Source: Spirochaetota bacterium
Lineage (GTDB): Bacteria > Spirochaetota > UBA12135 > COTS27 > JAFLEE01
Length of the DNA stretch: 42,316 nucleotides
Direction: 5' to 3'
Assembly (NCBI GenBank): GCA_017302015.1
Contig: JAFLEE010000042.1
Location: forward strand, 1 to 42,316
Notes under the pieces: model-generated
The model's database searches: none
Seen by the model: only the letters and a program-made list of their open reading frames with translations
What the model was told of the DNA's origin: nothing
Made by a program: the position numbers and the translations under genes
Shown here: piece by piece, positions 4,301 to 32,523 of the stretch
Position numbering within the stretch: position 1 is the first letter of the stretch
Layout of the letters: every line of letters begins with the position of its first letter

Positions 4301-4470
4301 GGGAATGCTTTTCGGCGCTCGGATACAAGAAAAAAAGCCTCATCGGCTTCGCCGCTTCCGTTCGTGATTTGGGGAAGAATTACGAAGAACGCGCCCGCGC
4401 CTTTTGGGCGGGAGACAATGACAATTACCGGGATACTTCGAAGTTCGGGTTATTGTTACTGATGCCCTGA
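1333..4470 (+). CDS. Secreted multidomain clan GH-A glycoside hydrolase with CBM9-like C-terminus
   Basis: A 1045-aa secreted enzyme. Residues 1-23 are a signal peptide, and about 24-195 are a CBM4/9/22-like beta-sandwich starting at the usual LLLENSSFE. About 200-310 are Ig-like, and about 315-700 form a (beta/alpha)8 domain of the GH39/GH5 type. The acid/base is probably Glu465 in LWESWNEPG and the nucleophile Glu561 in VWDTESGSE. A beta-sandwich with the motif VLDMMGGRL follows. The end (about 850-1045) is a CBM9/DOMON-like domain opening with LIDGLAGDSAWNGA. The substrate cannot be read from sequence; neighbours suggest a plant or algal heteropolysaccharide. A GGAAGGA ribosome binding site lies just upstream and the LamG gene ends 13 bases before. 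Two other genes in the window encode likely paralogues. Confidence 0.8.
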   Translation: MNPIAQLQKWAILILGVSAGLWGENLLLENSSFESGRWGFDASPVVFLRNWDRFTPPMITAETAAHGTHSLKLMNPTGMDAIQVFFPAREFKERTHLVVSFYAKASVEKTPLLAGMLCGWKRVIEKNIDLGKDWARYQFEGDVGVDFVKESSAGGARGMYALTLSLFSAKKPVFGDVWIDAIQIERQALTEYAPAKTLEATLDFADFPNRRSLVYFAGEKPEAVLTVASTRAVAAAEARITVKDTLGGQVLFDEKKSVALDAKGQGSVRVSLPAVARRHYRIEAVVTSGGGRATAQRVFGGIVDLSKNQIRSKRFGGSIEMMEEARAYYMAPADPSYRMAAYREKPEVYASLARKIGWQWIHFYGQVGIGMVAPEKGKYQWRDADACTDLYLKLGLEIMALTTSHGNYQGWYFEPKWILTGPKSLGGNNAGKDSPLVNAEDFGRFCFDLAEHFKGRIDLWESWNEPGVKMRAEEYLPLLAACYTNMKRANPASSVLGLCGTWDMGGDLYGWVKRCLALGAGKYMDEIGIHGYHTKDRDYIARVRATAKELTGKEWKVWDTESGSEILQDYGYPAYFNWESPTEYRFDGLLTMLSKHYANEMASGVERQSWFNLIGSYGWIGKPDYALMNYDGSPNAAMMGQNYLIEQYEGARLHREVPVEGGTVAYVFQKGNEPFLVYWNETLETEGSLPIEGVQVLDMMGGRLPVRSEGGTTLLKIDKTPRYVTAAGMGAEALASAVGRITVRGASALKLGRISLSVSGETPLLVASVKNTGAQPQRLEVETISKPAWVSAGVRESRLLPGFTNLDLSWRLPMTLPGDDNLLRLAFEVPSGTLVANIPLNIQSARRGAGVLIDGLAGDSAWNGALWGPIGHFATMASSYDEKSLHFFFKVKDNEVVNYRDYSATALPSWKTDGVELYFDLDREGDFSQSTFNQDDLQLAFAVKCGPASKDEVNKGPDVYAGNKNFPADKVSMKTTRSGEGYLMEIGIPWECFSALGYKKKSLIGFAASVRDLGKNYEERARAFWAGDNDNYRDTSKFGLLLLMP

Positions 4471-4710
4471 CGATCGGGTTCATCGCGGTGGGACGAGCGT
4501 CCGAACATAGGGGAGTAAACTGAGGGTGGATTTGGGTTCAATCGGTGGGGGAGGGAATGGGTTTTTCTTGAGGTTTGATGGGTGATGTTGAATTCGGGAT
4601 TGCAACGCTTGGTGACCCAATATCACATAATAGCCCATTGTTCGCGAAATCTTTCATCTACCCCTATCCCCCTCAAAGTTCCCCTACCTCATCCCATCCC
4701 CCGCCACCCC
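4471..4710. other. Intergenic gap between convergent genes, G/C-run asymmetric
   Basis: This 240-bp gap separates the 3' ends of the GH-A gene and the GH95-like gene. No convincing gene is seen. The part nearest the GH95-like stop (4661-4710) is almost pure C/T on the plus strand. The minus-strand transcript therefore carries several runs of three to five G immediately after the stop codon. A second G-rich patch on the plus strand (about 4541-4562) precedes a run of T. No classical hairpin-plus-U terminator is clear. Confidence 0.5.
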
Positions 4711-6915
4711 CTACAGAAGCTCCCTCCCCTCTCCCTCCTTGAACAAATAAGTCCTCACCTCCCCACCTATCTCTAATTTGAGACTTCCGCCCGCCGCACT
4801 GAGAACGCTCACACGCCGCAATTCACCGCGCTCCCATCGCGCCGCCATCGTGAATCCGCCCGGCAGCCGAACTCCTTCGAAGGAAGCCGTTTGCCACCGC
4901 TCGGGAACGCCCGTGAACAAGTGGATCACGCCCCGCCGTTCATGGACGAGCAGTTCCAGGAGCGCCGTGGCGCCGGCCATCGTCCCATCGAGTTGCATGA
5001 TCTCGGTGGATTCCTTCGGCTGTTCTTGGAGTTCCCGGCGATGGGAGGAGAGTCCCCCGAATCGGGGGATGTAGACGGTCGCCATGCTTTCGTTGATGAA
5101 CAGTTCCCTCCAAATATTCAGGAGGTGGAGCGGGCTCTCCCGAAGGCCCACCCGGGCATGCAGGATGGCCGCCCAGGGCATGCACCATTCGCTCCACATG
5201 CCGATGCCTTTCTCCACCCAGCCATCGACGGTTTTATCGATCGTGGCCGCATGCTCCTCCGCGCGGGGGTCGATGGCGTCGAACGGATAGAGAGCGCCTA
5301 GGTGCGAGTGGTGGCGATAGGATTCGGGCAGGTCCTGCCCCTCCCATAGGGCGATCCGTTTCCCATAGTCACCCGGGGGGCGATAGGCGGGGGCGGGGAC
5401 CGCCACCGTGGCGTAGGGGGGGAGGCGAAGCTGGATGTCGCGCCAAATAGGTTTGGGCGGGATCCCCAGGCGCCTCGCCGCTTCCATGAGGGATTCCGCT
5501 AATCGATGGATGCAAGCGAGTTGCCACGAGGAATCGCGCCCCGCCTCGGCCTCGTGATGGCGGGCGCCGAACTCCGGCGCGGGGCCCAATGCCAGGGACA
5601 GTTGCCCCCCGCGTTCTTCCAGCATGGCCTCGTGGCTCGCCATGGCCCCCGACATGAAGGGCCAGGCCCGATTCGAAAGGAAGTCGGCGTCGAGGGAATG
5701 GCGGTAATACTCCCAGTAGAGCAATGCGAGCCAGCCCGTGACCGATTGGTCCAAGCCCGAGTGCGGCCGCAGACCGCTTTGGCATTGGCGCCCGAGATCG
5801 TTGACGCTATGGGTGAGCATCAAGCCGTCTTTGATCCCGAACATCCGCTCGGCATTCTGGCGCATCGCTTCCTGGTACGGCTCGGAATCGAGCATGGCGA
5901 AGAGCGGCATCAGATGGGAGAGGTTCCCCGAGCGGAAACCGAGGGTATAGATCTGCTGGATATTCACGTTCATCGTGTAATCGCCGCCCCACGGGGGCAT
6001 TTGGTATTCCTCGAGCCAGGGACCCTGGAGCGGAGCGGGGCGGGGGGCGCGGGGGTTCGTCGCGCAGGCGAACTTGTACTGGGCGTACGCGTAGAAGCGC
6101 ATGAAGAAATCATCGGGGATTTCGACCTCGGGGACGCCCGACCAATAATGCGCCCACCAATCCCCGGCCTGGATGCGGCGGGTTGGGGCATCCACCCTCA
6201 GGAAACCGGCCCGGATAGAATCGAACTCGGTCTCGCCCGTTTCCCGGTCCTGCGTCAAGGCGAGGTGGAGGATGCGCCCCCCCGAGATCTCGCCAGATAG
6301 GGCGGTGAGCCCCGGGTCTTCGGGGCACGCTTGGAACCATCCCGCCAGATCCGGTCTTTCCGCGAGGACGGGCGGGAGGAAGCCGCGTTTTTCAAGGTCC
6401 CCGCGAACCCATTCCCAGGCGGGTTTGGCGCTCACCGATTCGATGGAGCGGTCGGGATCCCCGATGAGGAGGATATCTTCGGCAGGCAAGAGCGTGAAGG
6501 TCAATGACCCCGCGTCCTTCTCTCCCTCCGCGAGGAAGACTTCCAGGAATCCTCGCCCGAGGTGCAGGCGCGCGCCTTTCGGACGCTTTCCCGCCGCCAG
6601 GGTGAACTCGAACCGGCCTCCCGGAAGGAGCGTGGAGGAGAACGGCGGAGGGGGATGGTTCGGGTCGCGGAACGCGCCCTTTAATTTTTCAGGATCCCGG
6701 GGATCGTGGATCCCGAGTAATTTCTGGTAGGTGACGCCGGCGGGAAGCAGCACGCCATGGCGATGGTCCCAGAAATCGTTGCGCGACACGGTGAGGTTGA
6801 TTTTGTCCGTTCCCCAAAGGAGGGCCCCGAAAGAACCGTTGCCCAGGGCGATGCCGCAATGGGTCCGGGGAATGGGAAAGGGGAAGTCGAGGATCGGGAG
6901 GCGACCTAAGTTCAT
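4711..6915 (-). CDS. GH95-like glycoside hydrolase (alpha-L-fucosidase/galactosidase family)
   Basis: A 734-residue protein without a signal peptide, so probably cytoplasmic. The N-terminal beta-sandwich (1 to about 230) opens with ALGNGSFGALLWG, the GH95 opening. An (alpha/alpha)6 barrel (about 250-650) and a C-terminal beta domain follow. GH95 landmarks are present: MNVNIQQIY (Asn316 and Asn318, matching the paired catalytic asparagines), HHSHLGALYP, and MQLDGTMAG (Asp643, matching the catalytic Asp). GVIHLFTGVPERW matches the usual EIHLLPALP segment. The acid region reads IALWEGQDLPE and is aligned differently from the family QEW motif, so substrate preference may differ. GH95 enzymes invert alpha-1,2-fucosyl or alpha-L-galactosyl linkages. 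It lies 49 bases after the GH-A gene as the last gene of the GntR operon. Confidence 0.75.
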   Translation of the reverse strand: MNLGRLPILDFPFPIPRTHCGIALGNGSFGALLWGTDKINLTVSRNDFWDHRHGVLLPAGVTYQKLLGIHDPRDPEKLKGAFRDPNHPPPPFSSTLLPGGRFEFTLAAGKRPKGARLHLGRGFLEVFLAEGEKDAGSLTFTLLPAEDILLIGDPDRSIESVSAKPAWEWVRGDLEKRGFLPPVLAERPDLAGWFQACPEDPGLTALSGEISGGRILHLALTQDRETGETEFDSIRAGFLRVDAPTRRIQAGDWWAHYWSGVPEVEIPDDFFMRFYAYAQYKFACATNPRAPRPAPLQGPWLEEYQMPPWGGDYTMNVNIQQIYTLGFRSGNLSHLMPLFAMLDSEPYQEAMRQNAERMFGIKDGLMLTHSVNDLGRQCQSGLRPHSGLDQSVTGWLALLYWEYYRHSLDADFLSNRAWPFMSGAMASHEAMLEERGGQLSLALGPAPEFGARHHEAEAGRDSSWQLACIHRLAESLMEAARRLGIPPKPIWRDIQLRLPPYATVAVPAPAYRPPGDYGKRIALWEGQDLPESYRHHSHLGALYPFDAIDPRAEEHAATIDKTVDGWVEKGIGMWSEWCMPWAAILHARVGLRESPLHLLNIWRELFINESMATVYIPRFGGLSSHRRELQEQPKESTEIMQLDGTMAGATALLELLVHERRGVIHLFTGVPERWQTASFEGVRLPGGFTMAARWERGELRRVSVLSAAGGSLKLEIGGEVRTYLFKEGEGRELL

Positions 6916-6964
6916 GGGGGGCTTCCTGTGGACGGGGTGGAAGTGGCGACGAGGCGATTACCGC

Positions 6965-9682
6965 TTAGGGCGCCAGGGCGGCGGCCAGGCGTTCCGCGTT
7001 CCCCTTCATCTGCAGGTAACGCGGATAAGAATCGAGTTTCACGACGGTTTTTTCCCCGGAGCGGGGGAGGGGATTCCCCATCAAATCCCGCACGGAGACG
7101 CCATCGACCCCGATCGCCAAACGTCCCTCCGGTGCGCCTATGCGTCGCCACGCGACCGCGAGGGAATCGCCTTCCCCTTCGAAGAGGAAGCAGGCGGTCT
7201 GCCCATCGAGGGCGAGGCTGCGTACGAAGCGTTTACCGGAGAGAAATTGGATGCTGGCCGCGAAGGCCGGGACCACCGGTTTCGGGAGGCCGTTGTACTC
7301 CAGCATCTGGAGCCCCCCGGTCGCCGCCGGACCATTGTCTTCCGCCAGATCGTACCAATAGAGGCGTTCGATGCCCGCGGCCAGGGCCGTGGCGTACGCT
7401 TGGGCCAGGAGCGCCGGCGCCAAGCGCTTCGGCGCTTTCACGCCCGAATAGAAGGGGCTATAGTAGGACTCGTGGCCATCCCCCACCCCGCACTCGGTAT
7501 TCCAGATGGGGAGGTTTTTCCCATTGGCGAGGATGCGGCGGCGGTTGGCTTCTATATTGGAGGCCCATTCCTCCTCGGGGCCCGCCGATCCGCTGGATAG
7601 ATAAGCGTGGTGGCTGAAGACGTCGATCTGCTGGGCCGCCCCGGCGGCGAGGCAGTCCGTATTCCACCCCCGTTCGTAGAGGGTCCCGCAGACCCCCACC
7701 ACGGGGGTCACCGCGTCGGCTTTCTTGATTTCCTCCCGGGAGATCGCGAGGAGATCCACATATTGTTGCGGGCTTCCCCGCCACCAATCCTGTAGATACG
7801 GTTCGTTCCAGATCTCCCAAGCGTCGACGAGGCCGCGGAACCGGCCGGCCAGAGCGGCGGAGAAATCGCGCCAAGGCCCGGGTTCGGGGGGGTGCTTCGT
7901 GCGCTCCCACTCCTTCACGGTTGCGGGTGCGGTGGAAGCCCACATGGAGCCGAGTTCCATGTTCGCCAGCAGGTGGATGCCCGCCTCCTTCGCCCGTCGA
8001 AGGACCGCCTCCTTCGCGGGCTCCCAACGGGGCGCCTGTCCCCGCTCGGGTTGGAGCATCGCCCACCTCAGGTAATTGTCGTCGTGGAGCCTGAGGCTGC
8101 CCACCCCGATCTTTCCGGCGATGCGGCAGAAGGTTTCGGAGGAAAAGGTGTTCACGCCGAAGAGCCCCGCCCCTCTGCGCGCCTCGGGAAGACCCCTCGG
8201 CAGGATCGCGAAGGGGGCGATCCCTCGGGAGAGGACCGCGCTCCCCGCCCTGAGCGTCCACTGGGCGCAGAAGGATCCGAGTAGCGGCGTCTTCCACGCA
8301 ACGGAGCGGGTGAAGGTCGCCACCCCTTTTTCGTCCATGGGCAGGGAGCGTGCATGCACGATTTCGCCGAAGACGTTCTCGACCGCGAGATCCAGGTTCC
8401 AGGGCGAGGCCCGGTCGGTGGCGCGCCCCTCTGGAACGCTCATGCGGGCGTTCAAGGAGACCGTTTCTCCTTCCACGTAGAGCCCATGCTCCGCGGAGGT
8501 CGAGCCGACGATCTCGACGGCGGGCGCCAGGTCGAACGGCGAGAGCCCGCCCTCCTCCAATTGCACCGCGTCGATCCAGACCTTGCGCGCGCTGAAATCG
8601 TTGGTCTTGAGCCAGGTGCCCGGCATGGCGATGCAGGCCACCATCGTTCCCTTGGGGCATGCGCCGACCTCGAACGAAAACGCGACTCGTTGCCAATCCC
8701 CGGTGAGGCGCACCGCCTTGGTGATGGCGGGCCTCGAACGGGCCGCATAGCGGGCCTCAAGGACCGCCTCGATCCCCGGTTCGCTGGTTTTGAGGAAGGC
8801 GCTTAAGGTGTAGACCTTGCCTTTCGCCACCGCCACGGCGGGGCTCTGGATCCGCCCCCCGGCCTCGTACCACCTCGGCCACGCGTCGTAGCGCATGCTT
8901 TGGGCGCCGTGGACCTTCTCCCGGTTGTCGAGGAACATCTGGTCGTCGCGGGACCTGCTCTGCATCGTGTAGGAGAATCCCCAATGCTCCAGGCTCCCCT
9001 CGAATGAGGCATTGCGCAGCAGGTTCGTCCCCGTGGGTTTGGATACGGGAGTCGCGGCCGTCCAGGCGATCGTTCCGGCGGCCTGTTGAAGAACGGTTTC
9101 ACGGGCGAACTCGGCGGCATCGAGTTCCCGCATCCCGAAATCGTCCAGGAGCATGGTGTCGCCGATGAGCGTCAGGCCGTAGCCGATGGCGATGCGGAAT
9201 TGGGTGAGGTCCTGCCCGGGGTCCAGTTGGATGAGCAGGCTGTACTCCGACCACTCCGAGTTCACCTCGCCGTAATACTTATGGTATCCCTTCGCCCATT
9301 TCGCGTCGGCGCACTGGATATTGGCCGCGATGGAACCTTGGACCGCGATGGCCTTCATCCAAACGCTCGCCTTGAAATACCGCACCGCATCGGTCGGAGG
9401 GATCGGCGTGAAGGGCGGGTAGACGCCGAAAAGGCCCCCGTCGTTGAGTCGGATCATCGCCAGGGCGGCGCTTCCGGTATGGGCCTCGTTGGTGGAGAGG
9501 AGTTTCCCTTCGGCTCGCGTCTTTCCGGGGATGGGCTCCCCGCGATAGCCGAGGGCGCCGCCGCGATCCCCGATCTCCACCGATGGATTGGGGAGGAGGT
9601 TCGTCTTCCCATCGATCGGATACGCATAGAGGTGAAAGACGAATGGGATGAGGATTCGCAGGGGGCTGGGGTTGGGCGTCAT
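6965..9682 (-). CDS. Secreted clan GH-A glycoside hydrolase with two N-terminal CBM4/9-like modules
   Basis: A 905-aa protein with a short hydrophobic N-terminus (ILIPFVFHLYAYPIDG) that is probably a signal sequence. Two galactose-binding-like sandwiches follow. One runs about 27-175, starting TNLLPNPSVE; the other about 215-385, starting TNLLRNASFE and ending VWIDAVQLEEGG. An Ig-like segment (about 390-490) precedes a (beta/alpha)8 domain from GLFGVNTFSSETF. Glu627 in WEIWNEPYL is the likely acid/base and Glu730 in IWNTECGVG the likely nucleophile. The C-terminal sandwich carries VRDLMGNPLP, shared with the window's two other GH-A enzymes. It lies between the GntR gene (51-base gap) and the GH95-like gene (49-base gap). 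Closest by pattern to GH39 and related GH-A families; substrate unknown. Confidence 0.78.
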   Translation of the reverse strand: MTPNPSPLRILIPFVFHLYAYPIDGKTNLLPNPSVEIGDRGGALGYRGEPIPGKTRAEGKLLSTNEAHTGSAALAMIRLNDGGLFGVYPPFTPIPPTDAVRYFKASVWMKAIAVQGSIAANIQCADAKWAKGYHKYYGEVNSEWSEYSLLIQLDPGQDLTQFRIAIGYGLTLIGDTMLLDDFGMRELDAAEFARETVLQQAAGTIAWTAATPVSKPTGTNLLRNASFEGSLEHWGFSYTMQSRSRDDQMFLDNREKVHGAQSMRYDAWPRWYEAGGRIQSPAVAVAKGKVYTLSAFLKTSEPGIEAVLEARYAARSRPAITKAVRLTGDWQRVAFSFEVGACPKGTMVACIAMPGTWLKTNDFSARKVWIDAVQLEEGGLSPFDLAPAVEIVGSTSAEHGLYVEGETVSLNARMSVPEGRATDRASPWNLDLAVENVFGEIVHARSLPMDEKGVATFTRSVAWKTPLLGSFCAQWTLRAGSAVLSRGIAPFAILPRGLPEARRGAGLFGVNTFSSETFCRIAGKIGVGSLRLHDDNYLRWAMLQPERGQAPRWEPAKEAVLRRAKEAGIHLLANMELGSMWASTAPATVKEWERTKHPPEPGPWRDFSAALAGRFRGLVDAWEIWNEPYLQDWWRGSPQQYVDLLAISREEIKKADAVTPVVGVCGTLYERGWNTDCLAAGAAQQIDVFSHHAYLSSGSAGPEEEWASNIEANRRRILANGKNLPIWNTECGVGDGHESYYSPFYSGVKAPKRLAPALLAQAYATALAAGIERLYWYDLAEDNGPAATGGLQMLEYNGLPKPVVPAFAASIQFLSGKRFVRSLALDGQTACFLFEGEGDSLAVAWRRIGAPEGRLAIGVDGVSVRDLMGNPLPRSGEKTVVKLDSYPRYLQMKGNAERLAAALAP

Positions 9683-9733
9683 GTCGGATCTCCGAAGGGG
9701 TTCATGCGGGGGGAATCGTGGGATGTCGGGGCC

Positions 9734-10774
9734 TCAGGAAGGGGCCGTCGTGGCCTGGAGTTCGGGGGCCACCACCGTTTCGCCGGGCTTAAAATCCGGC
9801 TCGGTCAAACGGCGGAACACCTGCTGGGCCGCCAGGGTCGCCGTCTCATGGCGAAAGAAGAGGATCTGGGCATCGGGGGCGCGCTGGGCGCCGAAGGTTC
9901 CGAAGAAGGTTTGGTCGACCACCCGGGGAAGGCCGCCCGCTTGGGCGCCTTCCAACGCCCGGTCGACGGCGGCGTACTCGGACCCATAGCAGAAGATCCC
10001 GTCGCAACCCTTCTCCAAGGCGCGCCGCGTGGCCGCGATGAAGTCGCCGTCCCGGGGGATGATCCTCGCCCGGTCGAACGGCTGGCCCCGCTCGTCGTGG
10101 GCGGCCATCCATCCCCGGAGAAAGGCCTCCATGACCCCATGCCCCTGCTCGTGGCCCGCATAATAGGCGCGTTCTATTTTTCGGTCGAGGAGCCAACGCG
10201 CCGCCAGGCGGCCGGCGGCCTCGTAATCCATCGTCACGTGGAAGGGATCCCCGCACGGGGGATTGCCGACCACGCAAACGGGCAGCGTCCGCCGGATCTT
10301 CCGGATGGCGGCGGCGTGGGCCGGGAGCGGCCGGACCCAGATCACCGCGTCGGGGCGGTACATCGCGATCTCATCGACGATCTGCTCCCGCGTGCCCACG
10401 AGGTTCGCCGTCTGCAGCAGGATGGGGAGGTTCTTGAAGACCTCGCAGAACCCGGCGAGGAGGTCCATGTAAAGCCCGTTGAGCGAGACGTGCTTCCCGT
10501 CGCCCCAGACCACCATCGTCCGGAAGAATTGGACGTTTCCCCCGGCTTGGGTGCGGCCGCCCGGGGACTGCACGAACATGCCCTTCCCGGGCTTGACCAC
10601 GAGCCAGCCCTCGTCGATGAGGTCCTTCAGGGCCTTGCGCGCGGTGGTCCGGGAGATCCCGAGGCGTTTGCAGAGTTCCCGCTCGGATTGGATGCGGGTC
10701 TGCGTATCGGTATGGCGCAGCGCGAGGTCCACGCAATACTGGCGGACGCGCATATAGGCGGGGATGAAGGCCAT
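9734..10774 (-). CDS. GntR-type winged-helix regulator with LacI/periplasmic-binding-like effector domain
   Basis: A transcription factor of about 346 aa. Residues 1-75 form a GntR winged helix (RIQSERELCKRLGISRTTAR, then ALKDLIDEGWLVVKPGKGMFV). The remainder is a periplasmic-binding-protein-like sugar domain as in AraR-type regulators. Examples are MYRPDAVIWVRPLP, then LPVCVVGNPP, CDGIFCYGSEYAAVDRAL and a closing ETATLAAQQVFRRL. I choose the ATG at 10774. A GTG at 10804 would add ten residues, but it coincides with the transcription start predicted from the promoter at 10808-10836. Neither start has a good ribosome binding site. It heads an operon with a secreted GH-A enzyme and a GH95-like enzyme, and an inverted repeat at its own start point suggests autoregulation. 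Confidence 0.85.
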   Translation of the reverse strand: MAFIPAYMRVRQYCVDLALRHTDTQTRIQSERELCKRLGISRTTARKALKDLIDEGWLVVKPGKGMFVQSPGGRTQAGGNVQFFRTMVVWGDGKHVSLNGLYMDLLAGFCEVFKNLPILLQTANLVGTREQIVDEIAMYRPDAVIWVRPLPAHAAAIRKIRRTLPVCVVGNPPCGDPFHVTMDYEAAGRLAARWLLDRKIERAYYAGHEQGHGVMEAFLRGWMAAHDERGQPFDRARIIPRDGDFIAATRRALEKGCDGIFCYGSEYAAVDRALEGAQAGGLPRVVDQTFFGTFGAQRAPDAQILFFRHETATLAAQQVFRRLTEPDFKPGETVVAPELQATTAPS

Positions 10775-10783
10775 GGGTTTAAC

Positions 10784-10836
10784 TGGTACTGAAAAAGATA
10801 CCACCTAAGTATCGTCCGGATCCCGGGGCTTGTCAA
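10784..10836 (-). promoter_or_regulatory. Promoter and candidate operator of the GntR operon
   Basis: On the minus strand, TTGACA (10836-10831) and GATACT (10813-10808) are separated by 17 bases and predict a start near 10801. An inverted repeat TGGTA-N10-TACCA (arms 10784-10788 and 10799-10803) lies exactly over that start. It follows the GT-N-AC rule of GntR-family sites, so repression by the GntR protein encoded just downstream is the simple reading. The arms are only five bases, so chance cannot be excluded for the repeat taken alone. Confidence 0.55.
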
Positions 10837-13097: not shown

Positions 13098-13931
13098 TCA
13101 GGGGCGCCGAAGGATCGCGCGGGCCGCGAAGAAACCGGCGATGGCTCCGCCCAGGGCCGCCGCGAGGCGAATCCACCATTCGCTTCGGCTCCGGCGTGTC
13201 TCGCGTTCCCGCCAACGGGGTTCCAGGTCGATCGTGAGGGTTTGGAGACGGTATTGGGTGGACACCTGCTCCGTACGCAGGGTCCGCATCCGTTCGATTT
13301 GCTCGACGTAGCGGTTGGTCTCCGGGCGCTGGAAGACGGTGGCCTGGGTGAGGATGGAAGTCCGTTCGGCCTCGCTGAGGGCGCGGGTCTCGAGGACGAG
13401 GTTCGAGAGGAAATCCCAGCGGATCTCGAGGGCGTTCGTCGGGAAGATCCTGATCTCGTTGGAAAAACGGAGGTTCGTCACCCATTGCGTCGCCTTGGTG
13501 ATCTGGCGCCTTCCCTCGGGAGTCGCGTAGAAATCATAGGAGAGGTTCGTCAGGGTGGAGCGGGGCGTATTGGTGACGAGGAATCGATTGGTGCGGACGA
13601 GGGGGGGCAATGGGAGGACGACCAGATTGGTGAGGAAATACGCCTGGGTCGATACCCGCTCATTGGTGATGACGGTCCAATTGCTGCTCACGGATTCCAA
13701 GACCGGACTCAGGTTGGTGGTGACCACGAGGCGTTCTTCCTCGACTTGGGTGATCCGCTCCCGCTGGATGTGGAGCGTTTCCGGGCGGGTGGAAAAGACG
13801 GACTGGGTGACGACCCAGGGCTGGTAGACATTGGTTCGGATGAAACGAAGTTCTTCCTCGTCACCGATTCGGCCGTGCCTGCAGGAGGCGAGGAGCGAGA
13901 TGGAAAGGAGGATGGGCAGGTGCTTTTTCAT
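13098..13931 (-). CDS. T-N-rich lipoprotein with C-terminal membrane helix, unknown function
   Basis: A 277-residue protein that I do not recognise. It opens with a lipoprotein signal (MKKHLPILLSISLLASCRHG; lipobox LASC, lipidated Cys at 16, Arg at +2, which does not retain it at the inner membrane). The body is rich in Thr-Asn pairs at irregular but frequent spacing (TTNLS, ITNER, LTNLV, RTNRF, VTNTP, LTNLS, VTNLR, PTNAL). It then becomes charged and helix-prone (YVEQIERMRTLRTEQVSTQY). The last 26 residues hold one hydrophobic helix, LAAALGGAIAGFFAARAIL, flanked by Arg. The start is the ATG at 13931 because it opens on the lipoprotein signal. It follows the PorV-like gene on the same strand after 162 bases. 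A lipid anchor at one end and a membrane helix at the other would allow it to span the periplasm (inference). Confidence 0.65.
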   Translation of the reverse strand: MKKHLPILLSISLLASCRHGRIGDEEELRFIRTNVYQPWVVTQSVFSTRPETLHIQRERITQVEEERLVVTTNLSPVLESVSSNWTVITNERVSTQAYFLTNLVVLPLPPLVRTNRFLVTNTPRSTLTNLSYDFYATPEGRRQITKATQWVTNLRFSNEIRIFPTNALEIRWDFLSNLVLETRALSEAERTSILTQATVFQRPETNRYVEQIERMRTLRTEQVSTQYRLQTLTIDLEPRWRERETRRSRSEWWIRLAAALGGAIAGFFAARAILRRP

Positions 13932-14093
13932 GGGTCGTCGATGCCTTGTTTGGAGGATGGTGTCGTCGCGGGAAGGAGCCATGCGGTCGAGGCGGATGGG
14001 GTTTCGTCGGGAAGGGCTCAATGGATGGAACGGAGCGTCAGGAAGGGCTTCGGGCCCGTTTCCGGTCCCGCGCGTTCGGAAGGGGTCTTCCCA

Positions 14094-15017
14094 TCACCTC
14101 GCGTAGACGATCTGGGCCACGGTCTCCCCGCCGGGCCTTCCGGGAAGGCCGACGAGGTCGAGGCCGAGGGCGCTGGGGCCGGGCAGGTCGAACATCACGC
14201 CGCCGCCCACGGTGAAGGAGGGATTGGCCTCGAAGCGCGAGCCGACGCGCAGGAAGAACATCTTGCGGAAGCGGCCCTCCAGGCCGAGGTTCACCCCGAC
14301 CCCGTCGACCTCGTTCCACGAACCTTCGACGGAGGCGGCGAAGTCGAAGTGCTTGTTGAGGTCGAAGGAGAGCGAGAGGGCGGCGTGGGCGGTGGGGGGC
14401 AGGCTGAAGAGGCCGGTGGTCTTGGAGCCCACGAGCAGGCCGCGCCCGTCGGCGGCGATGCCCAGGGTGAATCGCGAGGCGATGGGCGCGGTGAAGAGCG
14501 CCCCCACCTGGGCGAATTGGGCGTTCTGCTTGACGCTGTCGAGGGTCTCGGCGGCGATCTGGAACCCGGCGCCGATGCGGAAGCGGGCGCGATCGGCTTC
14601 GCCGAAATGCAGCGCCGCGGCGGCCGTGGCGCGGATGGACCCCGCGGGCACCAGGCGCCCCCCGTCGCCGGCGAACTGGAGGTCCCCGGTGATGGAATCC
14701 ATGAGGAGCCCCGAGGCGCCGAGGCCGAAGGAGAAGGCCCCGAGTTTGAACGCGGCCCCCCCGGCGAGGAGCGTGGTGCCGAGGTGGAGGTTCATCCCCA
14801 GGGCGAAGGAGACGGGCAACTCGAGGGAGCCGAGGTAGGAGGGGTTGTACCACAGGCCGTCCATGGCCTCGCCCCCGGACCTGGGCATCCCCCCGCACCA
14901 CGCTTCCTTGGGCGAGACGGGGATGTTGATGAAATCCAGGGAGGCGCCGCGGCCCCGGGGGGCCAGGGCGAAGGAGGCGGCGAGGAGGACGAGGGCGGCG
15001 CGGGGGAGGTATTTCAT
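14094..15017 (-). CDS. PorV/PorQ-like (UPF0164-type) outer-membrane beta-barrel protein
   Basis: A 307-aa protein with a signal peptide (1 to about 24) and alternating hydrophobic beta-strands to the C-terminus, ending in an aromatic/hydrophobic strand (TVAQIVYAR). The start of the mature part, IPVSPKEAWCGGMPRSGGEA followed by LWYNPSYLG, corresponds to the PorV/PorQ pattern in which a G-rich turn precedes the NPA-type motif. The strand pattern FSFGLGASGLLMDSITG and FRKMFFLRVGSRFEA also fits FadL-like PorV barrels. In type IX secretion PorV binds the C-terminal signal of cargo at the outer membrane. The gene starts ten bases after the stop of a large beta-helix protein that carries such a C-terminal domain, with GAGGAG as ribosome binding site. 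No PorU sortase or translocon gene is in the window. Confidence 0.7.
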   Translation of the reverse strand: MKYLPRAALVLLAASFALAPRGRGASLDFINIPVSPKEAWCGGMPRSGGEAMDGLWYNPSYLGSLELPVSFALGMNLHLGTTLLAGGAAFKLGAFSFGLGASGLLMDSITGDLQFAGDGGRLVPAGSIRATAAAALHFGEADRARFRIGAGFQIAAETLDSVKQNAQFAQVGALFTAPIASRFTLGIAADGRGLLVGSKTTGLFSLPPTAHAALSLSFDLNKHFDFAASVEGSWNEVDGVGVNLGLEGRFRKMFFLRVGSRFEANPSFTVGGGVMFDLPGPSALGLDLVGLPGRPGGETVAQIVYAR

Positions 15018-15027
15018 GGCGGGCTCC

Positions 15028-18000
15028 TCAGGGCATCACCATCACGGGGAGGACCTTCTCGCCCTTGGCGCTGACGACGCGCAGGAGATAGGTGCCGGCG
15101 GGGACGGGATTGCCCGCCTTGTCCCGGGCGTTCCAGGAGACCGCGCCGCGGCTGGAGACCGGGGGCAATTCCACGACGAGGCGGCCCGAGAGGGCGTGCA
15201 CGGTGACCTTGCTGTCGGCGCTGAGGTTGAGGAGTTGGATGCCCGCCGCCTCGCCCCGGTAGGGGTTATTGAGGGCGCAGGCCTTGGAGAGGTCGTCCTG
15301 CATGCCGCCGAAGACGCTCAGGTCGAAAGCGCGCAGCACGAGTTCGCCCCCCTCCATGCCGCCTCCGGTGGTCACCGCCCGCAGATCCACGAGGTTCGAG
15401 GCGGCGAGGTTGGAGACGAGGAGCCGGTTGGTGGTGGAGGTCTCCTGGAAATTGGTGGCGCTGGCCAAGAGGGCCCCGTCGGGGACGGGCGTCCAGGCGC
15501 CCCCCGCGGCGGGGCGCAGCGAGAAGGCGAGGCCGTAGCGGTCATTGACGCCCCGGTCGGTTTCGCATTGGAGGACGAGGAGGCCCTTCCTCGCGTCGGC
15601 CTTGGCCGTGAAGCGGGTGAGGGTGGCCAGGAAGGTGTAGTCGGCGCGGTTGGTGGCGCTATTGTTCCCCGCGCCATCGCGGCCATAGTAGAGGAGGGAG
15701 GTGTTGGCCGACACGAGGACGTTGGTGCCGCCGGTGCCGAATTGCCACCAATTGGCCCCGTCATTGGTGCTCCAATAGGCGTAGTCCTTCGTGGTGGAGA
15801 GCGCGGCGCTGAAGGCGACGTTGGTGAGGCAGCCGGCCGGGCTCACGCCGACGACGGGGGCGCCGTTATCGAAGGTCCAGGTCGAGGAATTGGTCGCGCT
15901 GTAATTGCTGAGGATGTCGCGGCCGTAGGTGAGGAGCGTGAGGGAATTGGAGATGATGAAATTGGTCCCTGTCGTCGGGAAGGAGTACCAATTGGCCCCG
16001 CCGTTGGTGCTCCAATAGCCCGAGTTCTCGTTGGCGGTGAGGGTGACGGTGAAGGGGGCGTTGGTGAGGCCGGGCAGGGGGCTCACCCCGATGACGGGGG
16101 GGGTGAGGTCGAGGACGTAGGTGGCGGTATTGGTGGCGCTCGTGTTGCCCGCCCCATCCCGGGCGAAGACGCGCAGCACGACCCCGTTGGATATGACGAG
16201 GTTGGTGCCGGCGGTCGTGTAGGCCACCCAGGAGGCCCCGCCGTTAGTGCTGTAGAACCCATTGTTTTCGGTGGTCGTCAGGGAGACCGTGAAGGCCACG
16301 TTGGTGGTGAGGGAGCCCGGGGAGAAGCCCGCCGTGGGCGCGACGGAGTCCCAGGCGTAGGTGTAGGTGTTGGTGGCCGAGACCGCGCCGTCGACCGCGT
16401 AGGCGAGGAGGGTCCGCGCGTTGGAGATGATGACATTGGTGCCCGCAGTGGGGTAGGAGTACCAATTGGCGCCCCCGTTGGTCGACCACCATCCGGTGCC
16501 GGTATTCACCGCCAGGGCGGCGGTGAAGGGCGCGTTGGTGGTGAGGTTCCCCGGCGTGGCGGTGGCGCTGGCGGCGAACCAGGGCACGGAGATCCCCGGG
16601 GAATAGGCGCATTCGTTGGAGTTGGCGTCGCGCACGGCGACGTAATAATTCCAGTTGTATCCCACGGGCGGGGCGTCCACGTAATTCGTGGTGCCGACGG
16701 CGGCGACCTGGGCGAGGAACTCGGCGTCCACGAGGTTCGACCAACCGAGGAGCGCGTTGGTGCTGCGGTAGACGGCGTAGGCGCCGAAATCCCCGGCGGC
16801 GGATTGGGGGCTCCAGGTGAGGACGAGGTTCCCGGGGGTCCCGTTGGAGGAGGTGAGGGTCAGCGGCGCGTCGGGCGGCAGGAAATCGCCGTTCTTCCCC
16901 GCGGGGCGGGTGAGCCAGGGGGTGATGGCGGGGGCGCCGACGAGGGCGAAGTTGCTGAAGGACCGCGACCCGAAATAATTGGTGCGGCATTCCAGGAGCC
17001 CCGAATCCCCGTAGAGGCTGAGGGCGTTATTGCTGAGGTTGTTGAGGGTGACGATATTGCTCTGGCCCGCCTCGTTGCTGACGGCCAGGATCGTGGACCC
17101 CCCGAAGCTATTGTATTGGACCAGGGTGTTCGTGGAATGGCGCATGACCACGGCGAGGGCATTGGATCCGAAGGCGTTGCTGAGGGCGGCATTGCTCATG
17201 TTCCCGGTCTCGAACCAGAGGGCGCGCGCATTGCTGGTGAAGGTGTTGGCCGCGATGGTGAGGTTGGTCGAGAGGGCCACGCGCATGGCGATGGCGTTAT
17301 TGGAGAGCCAATTGGATCTCAGTTCGACGTCCGAGATCACGGAGAGATACATCCCCTGTCCCGTGGTGCGCCTGACGGTGTTCTTGAGGTAGCGCTCGAA
17401 GCGCCGCACGCCCGTGCCGTTGGCGTTGATGTTGAACCCGTTGGTGCCGACCCACGCGCCGTCCACCGTGTTCTCGCGGTACTCGTTGGACACGCAGACG
17501 TTGGCGGCGTAGATCCCCATGTCGAAGCAATTGGAGACGTTGTTCGACGCGTAGAGCCCGTTGCTCTCGCTCACGGGCACCATGCCCCGCGGGCTGTCGT
17601 GGACGAAATTATTGAGCCAAACGTTCGACAGGCACTGGTTGCCCCGCGTTCCCTGGTAATTGGAATAGAGGCGGTTGGAGAGGAAGAGGTTGCCGATGCA
17701 CGAGGGGCCCTGGGCGACGATCCCCGCGGCCCCGCTCGTGAAGGGGGTCCCATAGATCGTATTGCTGCAGACGAAGGAATACTGCGGTCCGGCGTTGGCC
17801 CCGGTGCTATAGAGCATGAGGCCGTTATTGCTGCTGAAGCCGATCTCGTTGCCGTAGAACATCACGTTGGAGCCGTTATAGGCGATGGAGATGCCCTTGT
17901 AGTTCGAGATCACGATGTTGTTCATCAGCATTTCGTTCGTCGCGTAGGCGGACTCGAGCGAAATCCCGAAACTGGAGGTGTTCCACAGGTGGCCCGTGAC

Positions 18001-19935
18001 GCGGTTGGAGACGTAGACATTCGACCCGCTCCAGGATTCGACGCGCAACCCCTGCTGCTGGGCGACCCCCATGAAGAGGTTATTTTCGCGGACGACATTG
18101 GAAAAGCCCCGGTAGAGCACGAGGCCGTAGGAGAAGTTGGAAGAGCACGCATTCCCCAGGATCAGGCCGTTGGTGAGGCCCTCGATCCGCATGCCCGTCT
18201 GCGCGTTGGAGTGGGCCTGGTTGCTCAGGAAGAACGACCCATTGCCCTTGCCCGCCGCGTTATTGGTGTAGGCGTAGGAGAGGTAGCCGTTGGTGTTGAA
18301 GCGGGACATATTGCCGATGACCCAATTGCTCTCGCCCTTGAAATAGAAGCCCGCGGCCCCGCATTCGGAGGCGATATTGTTCTGGACCAGATTGCCGAAG
18401 GCGCCGTTATAGATGACGAATCCGTGGTTGCTGGCGCACCAGCGGACCTCGTTGTCGGCGACGACGAGGTTCGAACTCCCGTTGGCGCGGAGCCCCCATT
18501 GGCCGTTGAGGTGAGACCTATTCGAGAGGATGTAACCGTTCGTGATGGCATCGATGCGGATGCCGTCGTAAAAATGATTGCTCACCATGTTGTTGACGAC
18601 GCGATCCCCGAAGTTGGTGATGCCCCCGCCGAGGAAGATCCCGTACTGCTGCCATTTGCCGCCGTGGATCTGGTTCCCGTAGAAGAGATTAGAGTTCGCC
18701 ACGGTGCCGCCCCGGTAGATCCCGTATTGGCCGTTGGTATGGGCTTGGTTCGAATAGAGGGAGATATTCGTTGAATCCGAAATGTAGAATCCGGAACCGT
18801 TCCCGAAGACGCCGTTGCTGAAGGCGCAGTTTTCCCAGGCCATCGTGCCGGATTTCTGGGCGTGGAAGCGCATCCCCATCCACTGGTTCGAATAAGACAT
18901 GTTGGAGTAGACGAAGTAGGGCCCGCCGGTATAGAAGAAGAAGCCGAGGCCCGAGGCCAGGGCGGTGGCGTAGGCCGTGTTGCTCGCCACGAGGATATTG
19001 CTGGCCCCGCTGGCGTTCAGATGGAATCCGATGTTCGTGTTGAAGCGCGCCCAGTTTTCGGTGACCGTCGCGTTGCGCGGCGAGCCGCCCAATTGGATCC
19101 CCACGTGGTTGGATTCCACCAGGTTCCGGTAGACCCGGGCGGAGTAGCTGTTATTGATGTAGATCCCGCCGCCGCTCCAATAGGTGGCATTCCACCCGCA
19201 GCCGGCAACGTAGTTTGAACTCACGTCATTGGAATCCGACGAATCGACTTTGATCCCGATCGGATGGCACTCCAGGGCGATATTGCTGAAAAGTCGGTTC
19301 GACAACCCGTTGCGCGACTCGATCCCGTTGGAATTGCTGATCACCGTGCAGAATTGCACGGTATTTGATCGGCCAGAGAAGACGACGATGCCATTGTAGA
19401 GGTTGGTCGCGGCATAGCAGCCCGTGACCAGGTTGAAATTGGCGTTGGTGAGGCACAGCCCGTGCTGGAGATTGGAGACGAACTCGAGGTTGCTGAAGGA
19501 CCCGGAGGAACTCTGCTGGCGCAGGGCGGCGACGCCCGCCCAGGCGCTGAAGCGGATGGAATCGACGGTGACCGGCCCGCAATTGGTGATGTCCATCCCT
19601 ACCGCCGCGGCGGCATTCCCGAAGAGGTGCGCTTTCGTCCCCGCTCCGCCGTAGGCCGGCGAGGTGCCGATGTAGAGGTTGGTCTTGCTGTTAACCGACA
19701 CGGGGGCATTGGTGAGATCGGCGACGAGATAGACGGAATAGTTGTTGGTACCGGCATCGATGGCGGCCTGGAGGGTCGCGTAATACAGTTTGGTGAGATC
19801 GTTGGAGACGGCACCCTGGGGAAAGGCATGCCCGGCAAGCAGGATCAAAAGGCCAAGAAGGATGGCCCCTAAACCCTTCGAATTTCTACTGGAAAATCGG
19901 TTTTTAGCGTCACTGTAAACGATTTCATTTTTCAT
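15028..19935 (-). CDS. Giant secreted right-handed beta-helix surface protein with T9SS/FlgD-like C-terminal domain
   Basis: A 1635-aa protein. Signal peptide about 1-41 (hydrophobic core GAILLGLLILLAGHAF). Residues about 60-1015 are parallel beta-helix turns with Asn at turn ends (for example NLVTGCYAATNLYNGIVVFS), as in pectate-lyase-like and NosD/CASH folds. Fn3-like about 1020-1115 (GNLVLTWSPQ, then AYAVYRSTN). Four tandem domains of about 80 aa, about 1126-1440, resemble the chitobiase/beta-hexosaminidase C-terminal family (GWWSTNGGANWYSYPTAGTN). After a linker region, the last 80 residues from NPYRGEA form a FlgD-Ig/type A sorting-like domain (NPVPAGTYLLRVVS). No lyase active-site residues are certain, so it may be an adhesin or binding protein rather than an enzyme. 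It is first in an apparent operon with the PorV-like barrel. Confidence 0.8.
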   Translation of the reverse strand: MKNEIVYSDAKNRFSSRNSKGLGAILLGLLILLAGHAFPQGAVSNDLTKLYYATLQAAIDAGTNNYSVYLVADLTNAPVSVNSKTNLYIGTSPAYGGAGTKAHLFGNAAAAVGMDITNCGPVTVDSIRFSAWAGVAALRQQSSSGSFSNLEFVSNLQHGLCLTNANFNLVTGCYAATNLYNGIVVFSGRSNTVQFCTVISNSNGIESRNGLSNRLFSNIALECHPIGIKVDSSDSNDVSSNYVAGCGWNATYWSGGGIYINNSYSARVYRNLVESNHVGIQLGGSPRNATVTENWARFNTNIGFHLNASGASNILVASNTAYATALASGLGFFFYTGGPYFVYSNMSYSNQWMGMRFHAQKSGTMAWENCAFSNGVFGNGSGFYISDSTNISLYSNQAHTNGQYGIYRGGTVANSNLFYGNQIHGGKWQQYGIFLGGGITNFGDRVVNNMVSNHFYDGIRIDAITNGYILSNRSHLNGQWGLRANGSSNLVVADNEVRWCASNHGFVIYNGAFGNLVQNNIASECGAAGFYFKGESNWVIGNMSRFNTNGYLSYAYTNNAAGKGNGSFFLSNQAHSNAQTGMRIEGLTNGLILGNACSSNFSYGLVLYRGFSNVVRENNLFMGVAQQQGLRVESWSGSNVYVSNRVTGHLWNTSSFGISLESAYATNEMLMNNIVISNYKGISIAYNGSNVMFYGNEIGFSSNNGLMLYSTGANAGPQYSFVCSNTIYGTPFTSGAAGIVAQGPSCIGNLFLSNRLYSNYQGTRGNQCLSNVWLNNFVHDSPRGMVPVSESNGLYASNNVSNCFDMGIYAANVCVSNEYRENTVDGAWVGTNGFNINANGTGVRRFERYLKNTVRRTTGQGMYLSVISDVELRSNWLSNNAIAMRVALSTNLTIAANTFTSNARALWFETGNMSNAALSNAFGSNALAVVMRHSTNTLVQYNSFGGSTILAVSNEAGQSNIVTLNNLSNNALSLYGDSGLLECRTNYFGSRSFSNFALVGAPAITPWLTRPAGKNGDFLPPDAPLTLTSSNGTPGNLVLTWSPQSAAGDFGAYAVYRSTNALLGWSNLVDAEFLAQVAAVGTTNYVDAPPVGYNWNYYVAVRDANSNECAYSPGISVPWFAASATATPGNLTTNAPFTAALAVNTGTGWWSTNGGANWYSYPTAGTNVIISNARTLLAYAVDGAVSATNTYTYAWDSVAPTAGFSPGSLTTNVAFTVSLTTTENNGFYSTNGGASWVAYTTAGTNLVISNGVVLRVFARDGAGNTSATNTATYVLDLTPPVIGVSPLPGLTNAPFTVTLTANENSGYWSTNGGANWYSFPTTGTNFIISNSLTLLTYGRDILSNYSATNSSTWTFDNGAPVVGVSPAGCLTNVAFSAALSTTKDYAYWSTNDGANWWQFGTGGTNVLVSANTSLLYYGRDGAGNNSATNRADYTFLATLTRFTAKADARKGLLVLQCETDRGVNDRYGLAFSLRPAAGGAWTPVPDGALLASATNFQETSTTNRLLVSNLAASNLVDLRAVTTGGGMEGGELVLRAFDLSVFGGMQDDLSKACALNNPYRGEAAGIQLLNLSADSKVTVHALSGRLVVELPPVSSRGAVSWNARDKAGNPVPAGTYLLRVVSAKGEKVLPVMVMP
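15620..16560 (-). repeat. Four tandem ~240-bp repeats encoding chitobiase-C-like domains
   Basis: Four in-frame units of about 80 codons inside the beta-helix gene, starting near 16560, 16320, 16083 and 15840. Each has the frame LTN-(A/V)-(P/A)-F, then a (W/Y)-STN-(G/D)-GA-(N/S)-W core, GTN, and a (Y/D)-GRD-like strand, ending SATN. Units three and four are also very similar in DNA: ccaattggccccg at 15994 and at 15752, each followed by near-identical bases to ctccaatag. This points to fairly recent duplication of at least that pair. Confidence 0.8.
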
Positions 19936-26847: not shown

Positions 26848-28929
26848 TTGAAACGAATCCTCCCCGCGATCCTCTTCTTCGTCCTCGACTGCGCCACCGC
26901 CGAGGCCTTCACCCTCCACCCGATCTTCGCCGACAAAATGGTGCTCCAGCGCGACCGCGCCATCCGCATCTACGGCCAGGGCGACGAGGGCGAGACGGTG
27001 ACCGTGGAGTTCGCCGGACAGACCGCCACCGCGGTGGTCGCCTCCGGAAGGTGGAAGGTCACCCTCAAGGCCATGAAGGCCGGCGGCCCCCACTCCCTCA
27101 AGGTACGTTCGGCCAAGGGCGAGGTCGTCGTGAAGGACGTCCTCATGGGCGATGTGTGGCTCGTCACCGGCCAGTCCAACATGCAGACGAGCGTCAAGTA
27201 CTACCTGACCAAAGAGGGGGCGATCTACGCCAAGCTGCTCGCCGATGCGCTCACCTATTCCAACGCCTCCATCCGCCTGTACAAACAAGCGACCATCGTC
27301 TCGGAGGACCGCCGGGCCCTCCCCGGCCTCGATCGCGGCTGGGGGTCGAACTGGAGGGAAGTGAGCCCCGGGAACGTGGGCGATTTCTCGGCCACCGCCT
27401 ATTATTTCGGGAAGGAGGTGCAGGAGGCCGTGAAGATCCCCATCGGCCTCGTGCACGCCACGGTGGGGGGCACGCCGGTGGAAGCTTGGGTGCCGAAAGA
27501 GGTCCTGGCCACAAACGCCGCGTTCGCCGACGTGCTCGCCGGCTACCGGCTCGCCCTCGACGCCTTCCCGAAGGCGAACTCCAATTTCCTCGCCGCCCTC
27601 GACGATTGGAACGCGAAGCGCAAGGCTGGGGCGAGCAATCTGCCCGCCGCGCCCCGGGCCCCCATGGGCCCCGCCAACCAGCGGCGCCCCAACGGGCTCT
27701 TCAACGGCATGATCGCCCCCTTGGTCGATTTCGAGGTGAAGGGCGCCATCTGGTACCAGGGCGAGGACAACGCCCGAAATTATTCCAATGCGGTGCTCTA
27801 TCGCGGCCTCTTCAAGGCCATGATCCTCAATTGGCGCTTCGAGTTCAAAAACCCCGACATGCCCTTCCTCTTCTGCCAATTGGCCGGCTTCGGGAAGCAG
27901 TCCCCGAACGTTGAAGACAAGACCTGGTCGTACCTGCGCGAAGCCCAGGCCGCGGCCCTCGATCTACCCCATACCGGCATGGCCAACCTCATCGATGCCG
28001 GCCTCGAGGATGATATCCACCCCCCCTTCAAGCACGAGTCGGGCGAGCGCCTCGCCGCCCTCGCCAAGGCGAAAGTCTACGGGTTGGGAAACGTACCCTG
28101 CGGCCCCGTCTTCTCGGGCGTCGCGTTCAATGGGTCCAAGGCGGTCCTGCGCTTCGACCAAGTGGGCTCGGGCCTCGTCGCGAAGGAGGTCCAATTGGGC
28201 CTCAAATATAAGCTCGAGGCCGGGGACCTCCGGGGTTTTGCCGTGGCGTCCACCGATGAGGCCTTCGTTTGGGCCAAAGCCGAGATCCAGGCTAACCAGG
28301 TGCAAGTCACCCACCCCGAAGGCAAGCCCATCACGGCCGTGCGCTACGCCTGGGCCAATTTCCACCTGGCGAACCTCTATAATAAAGAAGGCTTCCCCGC
28401 CGCGCCGTTCCGCACCGACGATTGGTCGCCCGAGCGCGTGCCCCTCGAGGTGCGCAAGGCGACCGTCGGCATGGTGAACGTGGCATTGCGCTGCCCATGG
28501 TCGAGCAGCAATGCCAACCCGCTCACCGCGACGCGGGGCATCTACGGCGACCTCACCGATGGCGTCTGGAATTCTGATGGGGGTAATGGCTGCTTCTCCA
28601 CCGACTCCGGCTCCCAATTCCCCAAAGAGGTGGTCATCCGCCTGGGGAAGCCGAGCCGGCTCAAGACGCTCGTCGCCTTCGGCAGCGCGGTGGGCGGCAC
28701 CCGCAACGTCGAACTCGCCCTCTCGGTGGACGGGAAAACATTCGAGGCCGTCGGCAAGAAGACCTTCGACAATTATTCCGACGCCATCTGGGTCCTTCCC
28801 CTGGACAAGCCCCGCGAGGCGGCCTTCATCCGCATCACGTTTTTGGATGTCTACGAGATCGGCTTCATGAAGCAGAAAAGCGGCCACGTCTTCCTGCGGG
28901 AACTCATGGCCTTCGGGGATGGGCGCTGA
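26848..28929 (+). CDS. Sialate O-acetylesterase-like SGNH esterase with discoidin-like C-terminus
   Basis: A 693-aa secreted esterase. It begins with a TTG start (26848) and GGAG ribosome binding site, then MKRILPAILFFVLDCATAEA as signal peptide; no ATG is available nearby. The N-terminal beta domain (about 22-100) opens with LHPIFADKMVLQRD, typical of SASA/DUF303 proteins. The catalytic nucleophile is Ser110 in TGQSNMQ, and Asp389/His391 in DDIHPP complete the SGNH machinery. AIWYQGEDNA is another family block. The C-terminus (about 550-693) is an F5/8-type C-like sandwich. Such enzymes remove acetyl esters from sialic acids or plant polysaccharides; here a role in deacetylating a decorated glycan fits better. 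It follows the GH-A gene after 133 bases with a hairpin in between. Confidence 0.82.
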   Translation: MKRILPAILFFVLDCATAEAFTLHPIFADKMVLQRDRAIRIYGQGDEGETVTVEFAGQTATAVVASGRWKVTLKAMKAGGPHSLKVRSAKGEVVVKDVLMGDVWLVTGQSNMQTSVKYYLTKEGAIYAKLLADALTYSNASIRLYKQATIVSEDRRALPGLDRGWGSNWREVSPGNVGDFSATAYYFGKEVQEAVKIPIGLVHATVGGTPVEAWVPKEVLATNAAFADVLAGYRLALDAFPKANSNFLAALDDWNAKRKAGASNLPAAPRAPMGPANQRRPNGLFNGMIAPLVDFEVKGAIWYQGEDNARNYSNAVLYRGLFKAMILNWRFEFKNPDMPFLFCQLAGFGKQSPNVEDKTWSYLREAQAAALDLPHTGMANLIDAGLEDDIHPPFKHESGERLAALAKAKVYGLGNVPCGPVFSGVAFNGSKAVLRFDQVGSGLVAKEVQLGLKYKLEAGDLRGFAVASTDEAFVWAKAEIQANQVQVTHPEGKPITAVRYAWANFHLANLYNKEGFPAAPFRTDDWSPERVPLEVRKATVGMVNVALRCPWSSSNANPLTATRGIYGDLTDGVWNSDGGNGCFSTDSGSQFPKEVVIRLGKPSRLKTLVAFGSAVGGTRNVELALSVDGKTFEAVGKKTFDNYSDAIWVLPLDKPREAAFIRITFLDVYEIGFMKQKSGHVFLRELMAFGDGR

Positions 28930-28971
28930 TTGGGCCCTCAGGTAGAATCGCGCATATCGCTATAAGTCATT

Positions 28972-28989
28972 CAGGCTCCCAGGAGCCTG
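28972..28989. terminator. Short perfect hairpin after the esterase gene
   Basis: CAGGCTCC-CA-GGAGCCTG is a perfect inverted repeat with eight-base arms and only two bases between them, 43 bases after the esterase stop. There is no U-tract on either side, so it may be a protein-binding site rather than a terminator. Confidence 0.35.
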
Positions 28990-29095
28990 TCATGCTTGGC
29001 GCGGAGTGCCCAGCTTTATCGTCGGGGAGTCCGATTTTGGTGCCTTTGGAAATTGGATTTTTAGGGTTGAAATCCGACTAATATAAACCATAATG

Positions 29096-29133
29096 CACAA
29101 AAGTCTTGACTTTTGTGTCATACGGATTAAAAT
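29096..29133 (+). promoter_or_regulatory. Promoter and palindromic operator of the DUF4143 ATPase gene
   Basis: TTGACT (29106-29111) and TAAAAT (29128-29133) are spaced by 16 bases. A perfect inverted repeat with ten-base arms (CACAAAAGTC at 29096-29105 and GACTTTTGTG at 29108-29117, two bases between) overlaps the -35 box. The start codon begins only seven bases after the -10 box, so the message is predicted to be leaderless. The region is clearly more AT-rich than its surroundings. Confidence 0.7.
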
Positions 29134-29139
29134 AGTCGC

Positions 29140-30288: not shown

Positions 30289-30372
30289 AAGGCGCGGCGG
30301 TCGGATCGGGTGTCCTTAAAAAAACCATGCGTTTGGGGGGGAATCCTTCCGCGGCCATCGTGGTCCATGAAA

Positions 30373-30423
30373 ACGCCCCGAGAAGAAGGCGCGCTTTGCG
30401 TGTCGGCCTTCCCCCCGGGGCGT
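30373..30423 (-). terminator. Intrinsic terminator between convergent genes
   Basis: ACGCCCCG (30373-30380) pairs with CGGGGCGT (30416-30423), with further pairing of AAGG and CCTT inside. Read on the minus strand the stem is followed by TTTTC, so it should terminate the Gfo/Idh/MocA fusion gene that ends at 30475. It could also serve the ATPase gene from the other side. Confidence 0.6.
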
Positions 30424-30474
30424 TGATCCAATGGACTTGAAGCGCGACGCCGGCTTAAGCCACCCGGTCGCGTC

Positions 30475-32484: not shown

Positions 32485-32523
32485 GGAAAACTCCTATGGG
32501 AAGATATTTTGAAAATCAGAAGG

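Follow-up and report, generated by a model that had tools for sequence, protein, structure and literature searches.

In the type IX secretion system of Flavobacterium johnsoniae, the C-terminal domain (CTD) of the cargo binds the loops of PorV inside SprA, and the complex of carrier and cargo exits this pore through a lateral gate (PMC10994853). Type B cargos of the same organism use SprF-like shuttles of their own, which are stoichiometric and kept as anchors, and some of the operons encode PorE-like peptidoglycan binders (PMC12618676). Type IX secretion has been described as confined to Bacteroidota or to the Fibrobacteres-Bacteroidetes-Chlorobi group (PMC4793230, PMC11205867), and the open-access literature searched yielded no account of it from Spirochaetota. 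Here we describe a cargo gene and an adjacent barrel gene on a contig of 42,316 nucleotides (JAFLEE010000042.1, here denoted C103; this whole stretch is the window) from an uncultured Spirochaetota bacterium, known from a metagenome-assembled genome (MAG) of 5.4 Mb that is 93% complete. The comparison set comprised 60 genomes, the host and 59 relatives, of which G003 belongs to the same class as the host. We consider it probable that the two genes are one unit of an abbreviated, type IX-like SprA-PorV secretion route in Spirochaetota, in which each cargo has a private carrier. The pair consists of the following features.

15028..19935, minus strand: cargo protein of 1635 amino acids (aa), matching Pfam Beta_helix (8.3e-39) and NosD (2.7e-30).
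15031..15315, minus strand: C-terminal sorting domain (CTD), type A-like, formed by the final 95 residues of the cargo and containing the GxY motif (TIGR04183, PorZ CTD).
14094..15017, minus strand: PorV/PorQ-family outer-membrane barrel of 307 aa, the proposed private carrier (NF033709 and custom profiles).

The cargo begins with a Sec-type signal peptide, followed by a long right-handed beta-helix at about residues 116-1050 and four repeats of about 79 aa carrying STNGGANW motifs (residues 1149-1387). Its CTD comprises some 80-90 residues and matches FlgD_ig at residues 1569-1625 (E 1e-4); the last 95 residues score 21.2 bits (E 2e-4) against the Por_Secre_tail model TIGR04183, just under its cut-off of 23, and match the CTD of PorZ with E 2e-7. 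A profile of the host CTDs searched against the Protein Data Bank (PDB) matched the C-terminal domains of PorZ and PorU as well as FlgD; weaker matches were to RgpB CTDs and to 8glk_D, a trapped cargo. TIGR04183 was matched at E<=0.01 by 25 of the 31 CTDs tested. The Pfam model Por_Secre_tail PF18962 had no match anywhere in the host genome, where the sorting domain is seen only through TIGR04183 at weak E values or through custom profiles built in this study. A preliminary description of this DNA had proposed a 1635-aa beta-helix cargo ending in a type A/FlgD-like domain; the matches bear this out, and the gene ends it gave agree with the open reading frames (ORFs) called in the window.

The barrel gene starts exactly 10 bp past the stop codon of the cargo gene, and the gap contains a GGAG ribosome-binding site. 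Against PorV_fam NF033709 the barrel scores E 2e-4, at 21 bits compared with a curated cut-off of 90, and several barrels of this family in relatives pass that cut-off. In the PDB, a profile from ten host barrels ranks PorV (6h3i_F, 1.9e-8) above FadL-type proteins. Independent profiles, built from 23 pairs of other genomes only and searched against 2654 host ORFs, found both parts of the window pair again (CTD, E 1.5e-10; barrel, E 7e-17), and all credible CTD matches lay at the extreme C-terminus of the ORF. The PorV/PorQ-like barrel that the preliminary description placed ten bases after the cargo is thus upheld; its PorV-like character speaks against an unrelated FadL- or OmpW-type channel.

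In the host genome there are ten matches to PorV_fam, and CTD proteins number 17 at a threshold of E<1e-4. Twelve of these 17 CTD genes adjoin a barrel gene on the same strand, the barrel being recognised by the profile from other genomes' barrels only; these strong pairs lie in the window and on C97, C17, C155 (two), C94, C112, C96, C57, C80, C1 and C109. Two further pairs are weaker, the C116 barrel being matched by a mixed profile only (E 8e-8) and the C135 barrel found by inspection only. Three cargos (C24, C164, C101) and two barrels (C89, C138) are orphans. The cargo gene precedes the barrel except at C94 and C109, and the gaps range from -10 to +86 bp. The chance of an adjacent barrel is about 0.9% per CTD gene, so that adjacency in 14 of 17 has a probability of roughly 1e-26, and that of the 12 strong pairs is still negligible. 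The association of cargo and barrel is far beyond chance. What the cargos of the different pairs have in common is the CTD; the rest of these proteins is unrelated from pair to pair and includes beta-helix, Fn3, PKD, laminin-G, Reeler and deacetylase-like bodies.

The order of cargo followed by barrel was also found at loci of G003, G005, G014, G026, G036, G037 and G046. Among the 36 pairs tabulated from eight spirochaete genomes, 35 have the cargo first and the barrel directly downstream, usually within tens of bases. Four spirochaete MAGs of about 3 Mb each (G014, G026, G036, G005) carry 26 to 32 PorV_fam genes per genome; the CTD tallies of other spirochaetes include FlgD proteins and are not cargo counts. 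Several barrels of relatives have no adjacent CTD gene, for example those at L110, L111, L120 and L121 and those of G010, G022 and G049, where one barrel each is present. The idea of a carrier reserved for a single cargo, proposed earlier for this locus alone, is supported by gene pairs at 12 of 17 host CTD genes, with two weaker cases, and by their recurrence in seven relatives. The similarity matrices of CTDs and barrels are correlated over the 36 pairs (Mantel r 0.59, p<1e-4) and over the 13 host pairs alone (r 0.60, p 0.0002), as expected for pairs inherited as units; judged from the sequences, this is compatible with cognate recognition, which it does not prove.

These data bear on the possibility that the barrels admit breakdown products, as FadL/UPF0164-like channels, and that the proteins encoded beside them bind or degrade the substrate, the pairing being metabolic and not secretory. 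PorV does belong to the FadL superfamily, some barrels of the family match UPF0164 and FadL relatives, and in spirochaetes with one or two PorV_fam genes most of the inspected loci lack a CTD partner. A metabolic pairing is nevertheless hard to reconcile with neighbours that have a CTD in common while their bodies are unrelated, and with the correlated similarities of CTD and barrel, and we regard it as decidedly improbable.

The host also encodes a single candidate for the pore.

L027:2174-9043, contig C16: SprA/Sov homologue of 2289 aa, the sole copy in the host (TIGR04189).

This protein gives three collinear matches to surface_SprA TIGR04189 (E 1.9e-32), under the 200-bit equivalog cut-off. 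The single host sequence had no match in the PDB by phmmer, but a 14-sequence profile of the host and 13 spirochaete relatives does match F. johnsoniae SprA (6h3i/6h3j) at 8e-38. SprA matches were found in 25 of the 60 genomes and co-occur with PorV_fam (24/44 vs 1/16, Fisher p 8e-4, phylogeny uncorrected). The preliminary description had allowed that the genome might lack translocon genes of type IX; the SprA/Sov homologue is one. On sequence grounds, the host SprA, the PorV-like barrels and the CTDs are homologous to parts of the type IX system, and because large proteins with an export tag of Bacteroidota type, mostly with adjacent carrier genes, occur in one genome with a matching SprA pore, the data suggest that Spirochaetota have a simpler relative of type IX secretion. 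Outside Bacteroidota and Spirochaetota, SprA homologues were also seen in a MAG of candidate division FCPU426 and in an Elusimicrobia MAG (L053 and L054).

The tight gene pairing comes without a linked SprA gene. This, together with two genomes (G034, G036) that are rich in barrels and gave no SprA match, would fit a pair resembling two-partner secretion, in which the barrel itself translocates the cargo independently of SprA. We find this the least credible of the explanations, and very improbable: solved structures show PorV as a carrier that docks on SprA (PMC10994853), a FadL-like barrel of 307 aa would be an unlikely conduit for a protein of 1635 aa, the host does possess SprA, and both SprA-less genomes are less than 80% complete.

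Several results weigh against the SprA-PorV route proposed here. The window CTD and the window barrel each fall below the curated cut-off when scored individually, and AlphaFold2 single-sequence models of barrel and CTD (pLDDT 33 and 36) are uninformative on the fold. G034 and G036 have many barrels and no SprA match, at the low completeness given above. The loci of the relatives were picked for containing barrels, so that the paired fraction there speaks of recurrence and is not a census. The correlation of CTD and barrel similarity can be explained by linkage alone, and a rank-based Mantel test within the host genome is not significant (p 0.10). The host, at 93% completeness, has no match to the C25 peptidase model of the PorU sortase (PF01364). 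The best GldL match in the host has E 0.25 and is not credible, a weak negative; for GldM there was no credible match in the 60 genomes, and since this search rang in no control genome, absence is not demonstrated. One host GldM match, at C94 (E 0.008), was rejected as a coiled coil resembling methyl-accepting chemotaxis proteins. The complete type IX apparatus with which the locus had first been compared was accordingly not recovered: no C25/PorU match and, as a weak negative, no credible GldL or GldM.

The same searches leave room for a complete type IX system whose motor and sortase have diverged beyond recognition, its carriers being recycled and its cargo cleaved and attached to lipopolysaccharide as in Porphyromonas gingivalis. 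The host does have SprA, PorV-like barrels and type A-like CTDs, and divergent GldL and GldM can escape family profiles, as the silence of the GldM search in every control genome illustrates. We nonetheless judge such a system unlikely: the identical C25 search gives strong matches in two other genomes of the phylum, G032 and G046, and a common carrier that is recycled would not require one barrel gene per cargo.

In the abbreviated route that we favour, the cargo would cross the inner membrane through Sec, and its CTD would attach to extracellular loops of the PorV-like barrel reserved for it, this barrel being positioned at the lateral gate of the host's single SprA pore. The cargo-carrier complex would then be let go into the outer membrane, each cargo using one carrier. 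Because no PorU-type sortase was found and the genes of cargo and carrier go together, the CTD probably stays uncut and the carrier probably remains bound as a surface anchor. Carriers fused to other modules are found in the host and relatives: OmpA (as tails, in G014 and G026), LysM (C80, inserted in a PorV-like barrel of 873 aa, L102:2990-5611) and TPR (as tails, at G005 C135 and at C112, the latter on a PorV-like barrel of 648 aa, L032:9570-11516). Together with the private carrier genes and the lack of a recognised sortase, these fusions lead us to suppose that carriers stay as anchors. A broader proposal is more tentative, and we hold it to be possible but less likely than not: that a simplified SprA system without the GldLM motor and PorU is widespread in Spirochaetota, with private PorV-like carriers of type A-like cargos serving as permanent anchors that are sometimes built into the peptidoglycan through OmpA or LysM, and that one carrier per cargo is perhaps the older state, the shared PorV being a refinement of Bacteroidota.

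Downstream of the barrel in the window lies a third gene.

13098..13931, minus strand: T-rich predicted lipoprotein of 277 aa, with the lipobox LLASC.

This gene starts 162 bp past the barrel stop. Its product contains 32 T, 13 N and ten TN, and its C-terminal hydrophobic stretch is weak (best 19-residue Kyte-Doolittle mean 1.83, at residue 256). Given the lipobox and this stretch, it is possible that the lipoprotein reaches from the outer to the inner membrane. No relative of it was found in the host genome or in the 59 other genomes, nor is it a component common to the other cargo-barrel pairs, and with the 162-bp gap we rejected it as a member of the operon for want of support, leaving it as an unproven neighbour. 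The three-gene unit of the preliminary description is hence reduced to two: the cargo-barrel order is conserved elsewhere, and the lipoprotein as third gene is not. A sigma-70/terminator scan gave a number of sites not above that in shuffled sequence.

Genes for glycan degradation (GH95, GH39-like, GH127, SASA esterase, CBM9) are abundant on either side of the pair, at window positions 1333-10804 and 26848-40505, which by their predicted families is consistent with a polysaccharide-degrading lifestyle of the host. The C94 pair (L031:3425-12116) has a Reeler/choice-of-anchor V cargo with a FlgD-like CTD and lies amid multihaem-cytochrome-like CxxCH proteins and a porin-like protein; because of this setting, the route may serve extracellular electron transfer. 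At C155 (L034:6580-7662) and C57 (L100:7702-8877) an extra downstream gene probably encodes an outer-membrane barrel; neither of these products has a family match, and they resemble each other at their ends. The C109 barrel gene (L101:1-1644), located 5' of its cargo, also matches the model of the anti-phage protein ProA at residues 330-525 (E 7e-13). In three genomes a very long ORF, of about 1408 aa where complete, lies 3' of the barrel (L116:2902-7128, with TPR repeats; L119:2550-6776; L134:1-2874); it is a conserved third gene and a candidate for a periplasmic partner.

If spirochaetes have a core of SprA, PorV and CTD in which neither motor nor sortase is recognised, the heart of the machine could be told apart from its later parts, and it would become easier to ask which energy translocation really requires. 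Natural one-to-one pairs of carrier and cargo would let covariation be used to work out CTD recognition.

Compared with the type A branch of type IX secretion (SprA/Sov, PorV and the TIGR04183 CTD of F. johnsoniae and P. gingivalis), the spirochaete pore, the PorV-family barrel and the type A-like CTD at the extreme C-terminus are homologous. That branch has one common PorV, whereas the spirochaete host has many barrels, mostly one per cargo; the host, in the phylum Spirochaetota, also differs in having no C25/PorU match and no recognised GldL or GldM. UPF0164/FadL-superfamily barrels of Treponema belong to a common barrel superfamily, and some spirochaete PorV_fam members match PF03687; unlike the barrels of the spirochaete pairs, they are not known to have a CTD cargo next to them. 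The type B/SprF pairs of F. johnsoniae (SprB-SprF, Fjoh_3952-Fjoh_3951; PMC12618676) likewise have the shuttle directly downstream of the cargo; the pairs are cognate, a few cargos and a few shuttles stand alone, and some operons also hold a PorE-like peptidoglycan-binding partner (PMC12618676). The spirochaete genes do not fall into type B, which has a TIGR04131 CTD and a PorP/SprF barrel: their CTDs match type A models, their barrels match PorV_fam and PorQ better than PorP, with one relative's barrel giving a weak secondary PorP match (5.7e-6 vs 1.5e-49 for PorV_fam), and in some cases the barrel itself carries a fused peptidoglycan-binding module. The contrast first drawn with the dispersed genes of Bacteroidetes thus holds in part, in that the pairing of a type A-like CTD with a PorV-type carrier sets the spirochaete genes apart, while cargo-shuttle pairs as such are already present in F. 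johnsoniae type B/SprF (PMC12618676). The spirochaete arrangement may be read as the private-shuttle logic of type B applied to type A-like CTDs and PorV-type barrels.

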